Assembly: GCF_007752935.1 (NCBI RefSeq)
Contig: NZ_CP036319.1
Location: 1,426,001 to 1,490,000 of the forward strand
Source: Crateriforma conspicua
GTDB lineage: Bacteria > Planctomycetota > Planctomycetia > Pirellulales > Pirellulaceae
Reading direction: 5' to 3'
Length of the DNA stretch: 64,000 bases
Part shown: piece after piece, positions 39,624 to 44,508 of the stretch
How positions within the stretch are numbered: the stretch's first letter is position 1
How the letters are laid out: each line of letters begins with the position of its first letter
Notes under the pieces: model-generated
Databases searched by the model: none
Told to the model about the DNA's origin: nothing
What the model saw: the letters and a program-made list of their open reading frames with translations, nothing else
Translations under genes and position numbers: made by a program

Positions 39624-40574
39624 CTAGTCAGTTGCCAAGCCAACTTTAGGGACGGAGCTGTCTGAAGGGGTTAGGAGTTCATAAAAAATGCCCCTGTCGA
39701 TTGATCGGGATATCTGGTCTGCATGGCCGTCGAAGAATACAAAATTGGCTACTGAAACATGTGGCGATCCCCAGTTGTCCTGATAGCTAATCCTGTAGCC
39801 GTCTTGTGTTATCTTCGAGCCAGAGCGAGCTGTGCCTTTGCTTCCACCCACGTATATTGGCTCGTCCCAGTGCCAGCTCGTAGGGGTCTGCTTCCCCATG
39901 TCATAGGCTTTCTCGCCCAGCAGAATTGTATTGGCGAGGCCCGCGGAGATTGTAGCTGGCCTAGACTCTCTGGGGCGGTCGAAAATCGATAAGTGATTTG
40001 CAGCAAAGTCGGTCTTGGCCATTGCGTGACCTCCAGATTCATATACGCCGTAGTCATCTTCAACTGGTGTCTCTGCCCGGCGTGCACCGCGTGCGGGACA
40101 CCGAAAATAGGAGATTTCGGAAGCATAGTCGGTCATCTGTTGGACTGGCATTCCAAGCTGTGGAAAAATTGCAACGGACCACGGCCCGGTTTGTTTGCCA
40201 GGTGAGAGCCGGTCGGAGTAAACGCCCCAGTATCGAACCGTTCCAGTTCGCTTTTCCGTCGTCGAAGGTCTCACCAAATTACCGTCGCGGGACAAGATAC
40301 GGCTTGATTCGTGAGCCCCACCGTTTGAAGGAAATACTGTATGCGAGCTTTGGAAGCTGCTCACCGCAAGTGCAAGCTGACGAAGCCGATTGGTGCAGTC
40401 CAAACGCCTGCTCGCGTCTCTAGCAGATTGGACAGCGGGAAGGAGTATCGCGAGAAGCAAAGCGATGATGCCAAAGACAACAAGCAATTCGATACTTGTT
40501 ATTGCCGATCTTCCAAAGGATGCAAGGTTGGTCCTCCGGCTAACAGCAAGACCGCTACCACTCTGCTTCAACAT
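39624..40574 (-). CDS. DUF1559 pilin-like protein
   Basis: 316 residues from the ATG at 40574. An N-terminal prepilin-like helix ([20 protein letters not shown]) is followed by [20 protein letters not shown], the hallmark of planctomycete DUF1559. The usual GFTLVE cleavage site reads AITSIE here, so Gly before the cut is replaced by Ala. The C-terminal part has [17 protein letters not shown], the typical end of the family. It should form a pilus-like or surface fibre subunit. Upstream 14 codons of the open frame are possible. Confidence 0.85.
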
Positions 40575-41027
40575 ATGGTTTGCTCCAAACAAGTTTCGGA
40601 AAACCTCTACGGGCACTTAACCGGTTGCAAAATTGACGGCATTCCGTCAACCGCCGCAATCCTAGCAGATCGAAGAGCGTAGGGTTGGCCAGAATTTTAG
40701 TTTAGTCGAATTGGGTTTTGCCCACGTGAGCCGCAACTGCCTACGATTCGGTGTGGGCTTTCAGGATGAATTGACAAGCTTCGTGTGCGACGGTAACAGC
40801 GATGCTGTTGTGGTTCCAGCGAACTGCGATTGTTTCGGCAAAACTTTGCAACTGACATCAATGGGAATCGAGGACACAGAGCTTGGGGCGGAAACAATCC
40901 AAAAAATCTGGAAATTTTGTTGCATTCCGTCCGCTTCGCCCCTTACGCTGACGTCGGTCGCTAGGTGGCCACTTGCGTGGCAGCCGCATTAACAAACTCT
41001 TTATTTGGAACGCGTGCGTGGGGCAAG

Positions 41028-42095
41028 ATGTACAAGCTGTTTGACAAGTTCGACATGCAAAGGAAGTTGCTTCTCTGGGCTGGAGGGGCTGGGCTTGTGG
41101 TGTTTTTTCTGACGATCTGTTTCTGCGTACTCACAACACTTGCTGGCTGCGACAGCCCAAAGGAGATACGGTCATCGCGAGAGAGCGAGGTCGTTTGCGA
41201 TTATGGCGTGATTGCGCCCGGGACTAGGCACTCCGAAAGGGTGACGCATGGGAATCCTAGGCCGAATAAAATCGTTTTCGAACGCTTTATTGTAGGTTGC
41301 AAGTGCCTTAAGCCGCGAATCGCGGAACGGACAGTAGATCCCGGCGGGACAATTGAGATTGACATCGATCTCGATGCGGCGTCAGTACCTCAAGACATCG
41401 ATTTTCCAATTGATTGCATCTTTGCCGATAGCCGCGGAGGCACATTCTTGCTTCAGCTTCGTGCGGTAGCGAAGATCCGCAGTGAACTCTTCGTGGACCG
41501 CACTGGGATTCAGTGGCAACTTTATCACGGTCAGTTGGCAACCCCTGCAAGTCTCAGGGTAGAAAATCGGTCCGGCAAAGCCTGGAACAAGCTTGGCTTC
41601 CGAGAGCACGTAAAAGACTCGTTCTCGGTCGACGTTGAGCGAGTGGCTCCAGGTACTAACGCTCTCGAGTCCTGGGAAGTTCGAGTTGCCCCTTTGGATT
41701 CCATGATATCCTCGCCCGGAACAACTCAGAGATCACTTGAGTTTATATCACCCGGGGGGCACTCTGGAAAAGTCTCGTTGCAGCTTTCTGTATTTCCACC
41801 AGTCAGGCTCTTTCCTGATCGCGTTTTCTGCGGTCCGGATGGACCGATTGAAGGGAAGCTTACGGTTACCTTCCAGATGCTGGACCCACCCAGGTCATCG
41901 ACGGACTTTATTTTGCGGAACCCTATTCCGGACCAGCTGGAATGTGGGGTTGACCAACTGGATAGCGGTGAATTCCAAATGTGGTATCGGCTCACCAGTT
42001 TGGGGGCTCCGTTTCGCGGCGAGCTTGTATTGGACATTCCGTCGCACGGGGTCTCAGCGGACATACCGTTAGTAATAGTGGCAGGAAAGCAATGA
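41028..42095 (+). CDS. DUF1573 protein, membrane-anchored
   Basis: 355 residues from ATG 41028; ATG 41055 is also possible. One N-terminal membrane helix (LVVFFLTICFCVLTTLAGC) with a lipobox-like end. The following domain has FIVGCKCLKPRIAERTVDPG, the DUF1573 Cys-X-Cys site, in an Ig-like beta sandwich. A second beta domain fills the C-terminus. DUF1573 proteins are exported and often accompany peptide secretion genes in Bacteroidetes and planctomycetes. Its stop overlaps the C39-like gene by 4 bp. Confidence 0.75.
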   Translation: MYKLFDKFDMQRKLLLWAGGAGLVVFFLTICFCVLTTLAGCDSPKEIRSSRESEVVCDYGVIAPGTRHSERVTHGNPRPNKIVFERFIVGCKCLKPRIAERTVDPGGTIEIDIDLDAASVPQDIDFPIDCIFADSRGGTFLLQLRAVAKIRSELFVDRTGIQWQLYHGQLATPASLRVENRSGKAWNKLGFREHVKDSFSVDVERVAPGTNALESWEVRVAPLDSMISSPGTTQRSLEFISPGGHSGKVSLQLSVFPPVRLFPDRVFCGPDGPIEGKLTVTFQMLDPPRSSTDFILRNPIPDQLECGVDQLDSGEFQMWYRLTSLGAPFRGELVLDIPSHGVSADIPLVIVAGKQ

Positions 42096-42655
42096 TTCGG
42101 TTTTTGGTGGCATTTGCGAGCCTGGTCGTCCCTCAAGTTTCCGGTTCTCGGGAGAATCGTCAGCGATGTGGTGTTCATGCAGTGGCGAGCGTGATGCAAT
42201 ACTACGAAGTCGCTTTTGAATATGACGATTTAGAGTCGAGGATCTTCCTGCGAGACGACTCAATTTACAGCTCCTTTGCTGATCTCCGGCGGGTCCTCAG
42301 GGCTTCAGGGATATGCGCGATCTGTGTGCGAGACCCCCCTCAAGACATCTTGGATCAGTATGATCCGTTTATAATTCATATTGCAGGTGAAGAACGTCCA
42401 CATCCACACTTTGCGATGTGTGTTTCATCTGCGTATAGTGGATACCTTGTTGAGATGTCTCCCGGAAAGATGCAGCACATGGGCCTAGCACAACTGCGAA
42501 GCGTTTCTTCTGGAAACGTGATCATAACTACCGATAGCGGTTCTGGATTGTCGATGCTATGCAGGCTCGCTCTGCAGTCGTGGGGGTTTGTTTTCTGTTT
42601 CTGCTGCTCGCTACTGTTGGCAGCGATTTCAATTGTTAGAAGGGTTTTGAGATGA
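42092..42655 (+). CDS. C39-type cysteine peptidase-like protein, membrane-anchored
   Basis: 187 residues. Cys26 in RCGVHAVASVMQYY lies in the C39 consensus (QCGxxxLxxxxxYY). His106 (HPHFAMCV) and, at the third site, Glu121 (YLVEMSP) follow at C39-like spacing. A C-terminal helix (WGFVFCFCCSLLLAAISIV) anchors it. C39 domains cleave double-glycine leaders, usually as part of an ABC exporter; here there is no ABC domain. It overlaps its neighbours on both sides by 4 bp and the next gene carries a double-glycine-like leader. Confidence 0.65.
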   Translation: MIRFLVAFASLVVPQVSGSRENRQRCGVHAVASVMQYYEVAFEYDDLESRIFLRDDSIYSSFADLRRVLRASGICAICVRDPPQDILDQYDPFIIHIAGEERPHPHFAMCVSSAYSGYLVEMSPGKMQHMGLAQLRSVSSGNVIITTDSGSGLSMLCRLALQSWGFVFCFCCSLLLAAISIVRRVLR

Positions 42656-43161
42656 CTAGTTTTGTGCGAAGGTCAGGTAGCGGTGTTGCGGCAATTGTAT
42701 TTGCAGTAGCCGCGTGCGTGTGCGCAAGCAGTGTTTTTCTAACTGGCGAAGAGCAGCGAGAAATTGTTGGAGGTGTTGAGCAAGATGATTGCTGGTATCC
42801 AACAACGACAACCTGTCTTGAACTAGCTGAAAACTCCTGTGGGGGTGCGTGCGTCTGGAACGGTACCGGAGGGTCGCAGCTGTTTGGCGAGTGGGAGTGC
42901 CCTCCAAATAGTGAACACGTGAAAAATAGGGATATTCCGAATGCGGTTGGCCAGTGCTTGGGAATCATTCCGGGATACGAAACAACCTTGTCAATTACTG
43001 CAGACTGCTATGACATTAGGGCTTGCGGTTGCCCGAACAATATTCCGCCTGGCCGAGGTGGCAGTGGTGGAGCATGCGGTAAGAAGGGCCCGGACATCGA
43101 CAGCAGCCAAGGGCAGACGGAGACGCCCGACGGTGATATCTGCTGGTGTGATCCAAGTTAG
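42652..43161 (+). CDS. Cys-rich exported protein with double-glycine-like leader
   Basis: 169 residues. A basic N-terminus and hydrophobic helix (12-30) precede LTGEEQREIVGG at residues 30-41. This fits the double-glycine leader pattern L(-12) S/T(-11) E(-8) I(-4) G(-2) G(-1), with Gln in place of Leu at -7. The mature part would have 11 or more cysteines (DDCWYP, CGGACVW, YDIRACGCP) and a Gly-rich segment. It follows a C39-like protease in the same unit and a strong terminator comes after. Substrate identity is inference. Confidence 0.65.
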   Translation: MTSFVRRSGSGVAAIVFAVAACVCASSVFLTGEEQREIVGGVEQDDCWYPTTTTCLELAENSCGGACVWNGTGGSQLFGEWECPPNSEHVKNRDIPNAVGQCLGIIPGYETTLSITADCYDIRACGCPNNIPPGRGGSGGACGKKGPDIDSSQGQTETPDGDICWCDPS

Positions 43162-43185
43162 GTACAGTGGATTCCAGCAGGCTCT

Positions 43186-43226
43186 ACTGACGCTGGTGTC
43201 TCCGGCACCGGCGTCAGTATTGTATT
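43186..43226 (+). terminator. Terminator after the Cys-rich gene
   Basis: A 14-bp stem with one G-U pair (43186-43199 with 43205-43218, 5-nt loop) is followed by a T-rich tail. It closes the DUF1573 / C39-like / Cys-rich unit. Confidence 0.7.
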
Positions 43227-43308: not shown

Positions 43309-44508
43309 ATGCTACAAAAGTTTCCTTGTTTGACTCGCTGGATTGGCTTGGCGTGCTCGTTTATTGCGATTGAGGCGAATGCGGACTTCACTTTGGATGA
43401 GATAGTGGCTGGCATGGCCTTCGAGAGAGGGAAGATCAAGTCGGGGGATTTCTTGCTGAGCGGATCAAAAACGATCGAGCTCTTCAGCGGGGAGTTAGAG
43501 CTGGTGGATTTTGAAGAACGGGTGATATTTGACCTCCCGAGAGACGCAACTCTTCTCCTTCATGAAGGAGTTATAGAGGATTCGACGGAAAGCGGCTTCG
43601 TCCTCAAGGACGTACGGATGTTGAAATGTCGAACCAAAGCAGAGACATTTCATTACAATAGCACAGCGCCGATGCCCCATATCTTCATTACGGCGCCTAA
43701 TGAAACTAGTTATAGCGGGATTGGTGGCGACGACTTTCCCTTCTTTGATCCTCGTGCAGTCGGCCTTGTCGGCTATGATTCAATGCACGCACTCTATGAT
43801 TTGTCTGATCTGATGGAGGATGTCTCGGCACGATTTGCCGACGGATTTAGTGTAGCGATTTACGAGGGGGGGATTGCGCGAATTCGAAAGGTCTACGGTG
43901 ATACTACGAAGGCGGGGAACCTGATTGGCGTGACAGATTTCCTGGTTGACGTTGAATCTGGCTTTGTTCTCAATCGAATGGAGGTTAGCAGTCACTTTGC
44001 AACTGGCACAGGTGGTCAGCTTGTGCCAGCGAGTCAATACTTTCGAGAAAACCCTCCTCTAAGCGGAAGTGCTGATGATTTTTTAGTGCGAAAATTGGTG
44101 CGAGATGTTGAAAGGAAAGTTGATGTCGGCTGGCAGGAGATTGACGGAGTTTGGGTTCCGACGTCGATAAATGCGATGGCTCTCGAACAAAAGTTTGACA
44201 AGACTGCTGACGGGAAGCTCGATCCGGAGTCCGCAAGACTCATTGAGCACACCTTTGGCGGCTCTTTGACTTGGAACAGCGTCAATGCTCCAATTGCTTC
44301 CGATCGATTTTCCTACAAAAAGTTTGATGTGCCAGGAGGCACGCTTGTTTTTGACGCGCGCGGCGATGAGCCTTTTCTCGTCGGGCAGGTGGGGAGTCGT
44401 CAGCCATATAGTCAGATCTCACCGACTACTAGCCTCACAGCGATAGTGATTGCGGGACTTGCGATTTTGGCATTCTTTATTTGGCGGCGAGGGGCTGGGG
44501 CTGCTTAA
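43309..44508 (+). CDS. Secreted protein with C-terminal membrane anchor
   Basis: 399 residues. A signal peptide (cleavage likely after ANA at about residue 27) is followed by a beta-rich body and a single C-terminal helix with a basic tail (IVIAGLAILAFFIWRRGAG). No family recognised. The plan (signal, beta domain, C-terminal helix, Arg-Arg) resembles a sorting-type anchor. Same strand and low GC as its neighbours. Confidence 0.65.
   Translation: MLQKFPCLTRWIGLACSFIAIEANADFTLDEIVAGMAFERGKIKSGDFLLSGSKTIELFSGELELVDFEERVIFDLPRDATLLLHEGVIEDSTESGFVLKDVRMLKCRTKAETFHYNSTAPMPHIFITAPNETSYSGIGGDDFPFFDPRAVGLVGYDSMHALYDLSDLMEDVSARFADGFSVAIYEGGIARIRKVYGDTTKAGNLIGVTDFLVDVESGFVLNRMEVSSHFATGTGGQLVPASQYFRENPPLSGSADDFLVRKLVRDVERKVDVGWQEIDGVWVPTSINAMALEQKFDKTADGKLDPESARLIEHTFGGSLTWNSVNAPIASDRFSYKKFDVPGGTLVFDARGDEPFLVGQVGSRQPYSQISPTTSLTAIVIAGLAILAFFIWRRGAGAA

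Follow-up and report, generated by a model that had tools for sequence, protein, structure and literature searches.

Linkage of a stand-alone C39 homolog to a Cys-rich precursor with a double-glycine leader suggests Sec-type double-glycine maturation in planctomycetes

How might a double-glycine leader and a C39 peptidase work together at a locus without a C39-ATP-binding cassette (ABC) exporter? Three overlapping genes of the planctomycete Crateriforma conspicua raise this question. They lie in the 64,000-nucleotide stretch that we analyzed (the window; contig NZ_CP036319.1, positions 1,426,001 to 1,490,000) and encode, on the forward strand, a DUF1573-like, probably extracytoplasmic protein (40965–42095, with an alternative ATG at 41028), a stand-alone C39 homolog of 187 amino acids counted from its ATG (42092–42655) and a 169-residue Cys-rich protein that we regard as the substrate precursor (42652–43161). 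An earlier note on this DNA gave the coordinates, frames and 4-bp overlaps correctly; both junctions, DUF1573/C39 and C39/Cys-rich gene, read ATGA. We think it likely that these genes belong to a Sec-type double-glycine maturation system, in which the precursor would be exported by Sec and then cut after GG or GA by an anchored, extracytoplasmic C39 peptidase. The observation is genuine and extends to a broader pattern among planctomycetes.

The Cys-rich protein starts out basic and continues with a hydrophobic helix at about residues 12–25 (42685–42726; hydropathy peak 2.6) that could serve as a signal peptide or signal anchor, the leader LTGEEQREIVGG at residues 30–41 (42739–42774) and then 128 residues with 12 Cys (42775–43158), which would form the mature domain after a cut following Gly41, a site proposed from the sequence, the alignment and the leader statistics. 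As the earlier note had read it, a hydrophobic stretch precedes the leader, and Leu at −12, Thr at −11, Glu at −8 and Ile at −4 stand ahead of the two Gly; these residues meet the double-glycine consensus, but Gln occupies −7. Nine cargo proteins, 17–28% identical to the window protein, align (A6) with nine invariant Cys columns and agree in the motif's first Gly, and a six-row cargo alignment retains six Cys columns and both Gly. The earlier note had proposed a conserved GG position in homologs as a test of its claim, and such conservation is found: G[GA] in a −12/−8/−4 context recurs in homologs and in other cargo encoded near such C39 genes. The window precursor also contains a lipobox-like V-A-A-C, which by eye is not common to the homologs inspected and was set aside.

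A profile of 23 stand-alone C39 proteins (A9) matches ComA with an E value of 4e-20, 4s0f/4ry2, which we take to be PCAT1, at 3e-15, and 6mpz, a double-glycine protease domain that is presumably LahT, at 9e-15; its match to the HlyB domain is weak. Cys26, Gly27 and His106 are invariant in all 23 rows, and the codons of the expected nucleophile and catalytic His of the window protein lie at 42167–42169 and 42407–42409, respectively. PF03412 (22.5 bits against a cut-off of 22) is the only domain match in the 187-residue window protein, which bears out the statement in the earlier note that no ABC transporter is fused to it.

To place the locus in a wider context, we used a profile (A2) built partly from five stand-alone C39 proteins of the window's own genome, all of which match it. 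A2 has matches in 55 of 149 genomes of the family (E up to 0.01). Searching with the window C39 protein as a single sequence gave relatives in 3 of 117 genomes, its own included, and a single-sequence contig search for relatives of this protein found none; nor did the one same-genus genome searched give a match. We fetched 80 regions at A2-listed places and later 20 more that were chosen by hand (see below). With open reading frames (ORFs) taken in all six frames, the stand-alone set comprises 89 C39 ORFs no longer than 620 residues; 13 longer ones were left out. The control comprised 20 stretches at round coordinates, 400 kb in total, from the window's family only.

Cys-rich secreted ORFs lie within 2.5 kb of, and on the same strand as, 62 of the 89 C39 loci (72 distinct ORFs), compared with 8 in the 400-kb control when both strands are counted; some shadow ORFs are included in both sets. 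G[GA] occurs between the helix and 40 residues beyond it in 55 of these 72 ORFs. Although the −12/−8/−4 pattern was first noticed by eye, later tests did not select on it: ORFs were chosen by helix, Cys count (not used in the comparison with 78 control ORFs described below) and G[GA], without regard to leader residues. Among the 55 leaders, −12 is hydrophobic in 30 (p 4e-11), −8 is Glu or Asp in 24 (2e-9) and −4 is hydrophobic in 41 (4e-22), with p values that treat rows as independent. Weaker preferences appear at −3 (hydrophobic in 20; p 1e-4) and at −13, −9, −7 and −5 (p 1e-3 to 3e-3), and −11 is Ser or Thr in 17. With one row per mature cluster (n = 44, blastp 1e-3, which may still separate distant relatives), the −12, −8 and −4 features are present in 26, 20 and 31 clusters, and −7 is Ala or hydrophobic in 26.

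Control secreted ORFs of at least 150 residues (n = 78, not matched for Cys content) have an acidic −8 in 7 and a hydrophobic −4 in 28 (background 0.28). All three leader features coincide in 19 of the 55 leaders versus 1 of the 78 controls, and two or more in 30 versus 15. The pattern also appears in a later set of 20 leaders, where −8 is acidic in 7, −4 hydrophobic in 16 and −12 hydrophobic in 10. The regions of this set were chosen by hand, without looking at leaders, among the matches listed (in at least 150 of 392 genomes, counting ABC fusions); 19 come from families f21 and f22 and one from f88. The number of Cys is even in 47 of the 55 proteins, as expected of disulfide pairs. Exploratory first-pass tables, which used leader positions or G[GAS] for scoring or filtering and are not the basis of these statistics, passed 19 of 82 C39 loci (17 of these 82 being long ORFs) through a strict leader filter versus 2 in the 400-kb control, and 34 of 82 through a loose filter versus 9. 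By eye, leader-like segments at L061, L210, L151, L215 and L216 end in GR or GQ, and the −1 residue may be freer in the planctomycete C39 system.

Gene order is conserved as well. The earlier note had suggested looking for the same three-gene order in other planctomycetes, and it does recur: among the classified genes of 21 listed loci, the order DUF1573–C39–substrate is present in the window and at 8 loci in 6 genomes (L083, L088, L091, L092, L129, L133, L161 and L162), substrate–C39–DUF1573 at 8 loci and different arrangements at 4. L088, L091 and L092 come from one genome, with L091 and L092 cargo 95% alike, and L161 and L162 are from the Planctomycetaceae metagenome-assembled genomes Gsp477_bin66 and Im510_bin130; L160, L163 and L164 are the same places as L133, L129 and L088 and were counted once. 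A DUF1573 homolog is found upstream of C39 in L065, L160, L161, L162 and others. The window DUF1573 protein scores 21.3 against a Pfam cut-off of 26.1, but relatives exceed this cut-off (45.3 bits in G010, 58 bits at L160). At L065 (1502–2710; genome G010), C39 and a Cys-rich substrate share one reading frame on a 4.6-kb contig; this fusion may be natural or may be an assembly or frameshift error, and we do not use it as proof.

The window's own cargo family is rare: A6 matched 7 of 199 family genomes, with 8 strong matches in 6 of them and one weak match containing a stop, and every strong match is an A6 row or the L092 paralog. No strong cargo member was found away from a C39 gene in these 199 genomes, a weak test as the strong matches were already known. 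Another substrate profile (A1) matched 17 of 397 genomes of the class; only the window's own match is strong, and we took the other 16 (E 0.002–0.09) as chance. A PDB search with the substrate family gave no match, and none of 10 cargo proteins tested matched a Pfam or NCBIfam family over cut-off. A weak match of one cargo leader to CCRG-2, an NCBIfam model for ribosomally synthesized and post-translationally modified peptides (RiPPs; E 6e-4, 19.8 bits, cut-off 24), counts in favor of the proposed maturation. In one paralog group, the signal plus leader is more alike than the mature part in 10 of 10 pairs (for example, 0.92 versus 0.36); pairs in L205, L146/L149, L086 and L091/L092 gave no clear contrast of this kind.

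Where would the C39 domain reside? In the window protein, an N-terminal hydrophobic segment, the C39 domain, a C-terminal hydrophobic helix and a basic tail follow one another, and the predicted C-terminal helix agrees with the membrane-anchored peptidase envisaged in the earlier note. Among the 79 of 89 stand-alone ORFs with a placeable Cys, a hydrophobic segment precedes the Cys in 61 and follows the domain in 59. For the 47 ORFs with both segments, net charge averages +1.38 before the first helix and −0.85 after it, and +1.23 before the last helix and +2.23 after it. These charges fit a C39 domain predicted to lie outside the membrane; the fit is clear at the first helix but mild at the last. 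Among 9 long C39 proteins that could be placed, 2 have an N-terminal hydrophobic segment of this kind, neither with an ABC motif.

From what is observed, namely homology with double-glycine proteases, a conserved linkage, a leader consensus and conserved Cys residues, we infer the following topology and cleavage. The N-terminal hydrophobic helix could take the Cys-rich precursor through Sec, so that it is inserted or exported and both the leader and the Cys-rich part end up outside the cytoplasm. The separate C39 peptidase, itself exported, would be held there by its C-terminal membrane helix. It could recognize the hydrophobic residues at −12 and −4, the acidic residue at −8 and, in many leaders, the Ala or hydrophobic residue at −7, and a cut after GG or GA would free a disulfide-bonded mature protein. 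DUF1573 or MauE/rhodanese partners would probably serve folding or disulfide formation, and a pseudopilin may serve release. Sec export followed by cleavage is the best reading of the predicted topology. This mechanism explains the co-occurrence of a leader and a peptidase without a C39-ABC exporter, the hydrophobic helices of both proteins and the abundance of Cys in the cargo. Ahead of its leader, the window precursor may have a signal peptidase site (VCA|S, by eye), whose use would still allow a second cut at GG.

Some observations weigh against this mechanism or limit its reach. The third catalytic column of A9 contains Asp in 16 of 23 rows, Asn in 3 and Glu, Thr, Trp and Met in one each. 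It is the window protein that has Met there (Met122), with Glu121 one column earlier; thus, the Cys and His of the active site described in the earlier note stand, but its acidic third residue does not. An oxyanion Gln six residues before the Cys is a feature of the C39 family, and it is present in 5 of 5 C39-ABC proteins but only 11 of 77 stand-alone C39 proteins; the window protein has Arg20 instead. The window copy is therefore best called a C39 homolog rather than a proven C39 peptidase, and departures at two active-site positions make its own activity the least certain point of the reading. The surveyed loci are a mixed set: at 27 of 89 a Cys-rich secreted ORF is missing within 2.5 kb, and 30 of 89 lack DUF1573, MauE and DUF1559 altogether. 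Among the Cys-rich ORFs, 17 of 72 lack G[GA] (some have GR or GQ, some are shadow ORFs and one is mis-started), fewer than half of the leaders have an acidic −8, and the distance to the C39 ORF is at most 100 bp for only 20 of 55 and at most 500 bp for 22. The 44 mature clusters do not stand for 44 unrelated families, as the one cargo family that we aligned spreads over several of them. In the window's own genome, L062 offers only a shadow-like ORF, and L063 (4879–5274) encodes a 12-Cys protein that carries the fitting leader LSEAEASAVLGG but has no hydrophobic helix in frame; the latter may be a broken gene or an otherwise exported protein.

Other explanations of the locus can be offered. Signal peptidase alone could mature the Cys-rich proteins, leaving the G[GA] segment as an uncut dock or pro-segment and the C39 protein with another target. 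Several precursors have plausible sites before the leader, judged by eye, and two of the usual active-site residues are missing from the window C39; nevertheless, we consider this alternative unlikely, as the −12/−8/−4 pattern of C39 substrates is found near C39 genes and not in control secreted proteins. Alternatively, the window C39, and perhaps its nearest kin, could be a degenerate chaperone or dock that binds leaders without cutting them. Its Met in the Asp column and missing Gln, together with Trp in the Asp column of the G010 protein, would agree with such a role, for which HlyB, whose C39-like domain has lost its Cys and does not cut according to the available part of one report (PMC8277102), provides a precedent. 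The same loss marks the difference, however, because Cys and His are invariant in all 23 stand-alone proteins, and we regard a purely binding C39 as quite improbable.

We find it very unlikely that a distant peptidase-ABC exporter carries the precursors while the stand-alone C39 protein acts as an accessory. C39-ABC proteins do occur in other genomes of the family, where ABC motifs are present in 6 of 13 long C39 ORFs. In the complete genome from which the window comes (7.18 Mb, one contig), however, none of 9 PF03412 match lines (E up to 1) falls in a frame longer than 354 residues, and thus no C39-ABC fusion was found there. Moreover, GG-type leaders occur at only 2 of the 6 C39-ABC loci, one with a hydrophilic stretch before the leader and the other on the opposite strand. 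An ABC ATPase lies within 4 kb of 1 of 89 stand-alone loci with a relaxed pattern, and of 0 of 89 with a stricter first pattern, weak evidence against a distant exporter; control regions also have none, so nearness of an ABC ATPase says little. It seems slightly harder still to credit a toxin-type role, with C39 as the secreted peptidase and the Cys-rich protein as its inhibitor or immunity partner. A9 does match PeiR at 4e-5 and a CdiA chain at 0.02, and C39-type peptidase toxins are reported in polymorphic toxin systems in the portion of PMC3482391 available. Yet the best A9 matches are double-glycine proteases, the partner has a C39-type leader, and the C39 protein is predicted to be membrane-anchored.

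Sec export followed by C39 cleavage would work like double-glycine processing, yet the system is not a member of the PCAT family. It shares with the PCAT/AMS proteins ComA, PCAT1 and LahT the C39 homology, the Cys–His pair and G[GA] with hydrophobic −12 and −4 and acidic −8 residues. In contrast, the planctomycete peptidase is separate, lacks the transmembrane and nucleotide-binding domains, is predicted to lie outside the membrane and mostly lacks the Gln at C−6; its precursor begins with a hydrophobic helix, whereas canonical double-glycine peptides have no Sec signal and are exported by ABC transporters. Sec-dependent bacteriocins and secreted disulfide-rich proteins have a signal-like helix and, in some cases, a Cys-rich mature part, to which the planctomycete system adds a double-glycine leader and a C39 neighbor. 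A leader-protease review, as far as its available text goes (PMC10885120), regards C39 as the protease part of ABC transporters and expects that more such transporter domains may act as peptidases on their own. That text also describes PoyH, a stand-alone RiPP leader peptidase of family C1A, which likewise acts on GG-type leaders without a transporter but belongs to a different peptidase family and is described without a Sec-type precursor helix, and it reports that LahT150 leaves leaders uncut when they lack hydrophobic residues at −4, −7 and −12. The C39-like domain of HlyB (PMC8277102, in part) is a relative, but in our set the Cys is kept in 23 of 23 proteins. The parts of the open-access literature on C39, double-glycine leaders, DUF1573 and planctomycetes that we consulted describe no such system, which leaves its absence from print unproven.

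If Sec-type double-glycine maturation proves true, there would be several implications. Double-glycine processing would not be tied to ABC export, as a leader and peptidase could act outside the membrane and be joined to Sec. Planctomycetes would possess an unannotated class of secreted disulfide-rich proteins whose mature ends could be predicted by rule, and a new type of leader peptidase might become a useful tool. The functions of MauE, DUF1573 and DUF1559 in this phylum could also be addressed directly. As to the cargo, genomes can have several C39 places (5 in G000, 6 in G504), which together with the missing same-genus match and the variable mature parts suggests, with low confidence, a role in antagonism or cell–cell recognition.

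Several partner genes recur near these loci. Of the first 65 loci, 19 have DUF1573 within 4.5 kb, 31 have DUF1559 (28 on the same strand) and 18 have MauE, compared with 1, 3 and 0, respectively, in the 400-kb control. On the same strand of all 89 loci, the counts are 26, 35 and 27, and DUF1573 and MauE occur together at only 3, suggesting that those two may be alternatives. At L066, a MauE locus, a rhodanese is fused to the C39 protein. A PMT-like membrane glycosyltransferase lies within 5 kb of 20 of the 89 loci (for example, L099, 6791–8671) and 0 times in the control; of three such proteins scanned, one scored over the PMT cut-off, one below it and one was unmatched. Judging from the functions of these families elsewhere, the partners might act in disulfide formation, glycosylation and release. 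Together they could even form a full extracytoplasmic assembly line, from Sec through disulfide formation by MauE/rhodanese or DUF1573, PMT-like glycosylation and cutting by anchored C39 to release by a DUF1559 pseudopilus, with several cassettes and fast-changing cargo in some genomes, although we hold this extension to be doubtful.

Glycosyltransferases of the GT2 family, present at 14 of 89 loci, are not clearly above the control (4 in 400 kb) and were not retained as partners. A 699-residue protein at L088 (3950–6049) combines a GT2 domain with DUF1573; the DUF1573 proteins at L091 (7121–9250) and L092 (4124–6259) resemble it in length and start, with the domain scan covering L088 only. 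In the window, a DUF1559 (SBP_bac_10) pseudopilin-like protein (PF07596, E 4e-27) is encoded upstream of the three genes on the opposite strand (39624–40616). A terminator-like stem–loop with a 16-pair stem (43185–43219, forward strand) lies 3′ of the third gene, where the earlier note had placed a terminator; the scanned region contains 10 terminator-like sites compared with 5.7 (standard deviation 2.1) in shuffled sequence, a mild excess only. Beyond it, on the forward strand, lies a gene for a 399-residue protein with a signal-like N terminus and a C-terminal hydrophobic helix (43309–44508). Neither this protein nor the Cys-rich window protein has a Pfam or NCBIfam match over cut-off, and the single PDB match of the 399-residue protein (E 0.7) is not believed. 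It is a recurring downstream partner, with profile homologs at L065, L083 and L133; one profile search placed the family beside the cargo gene at four loci, and L162 encodes a similar-looking protein.
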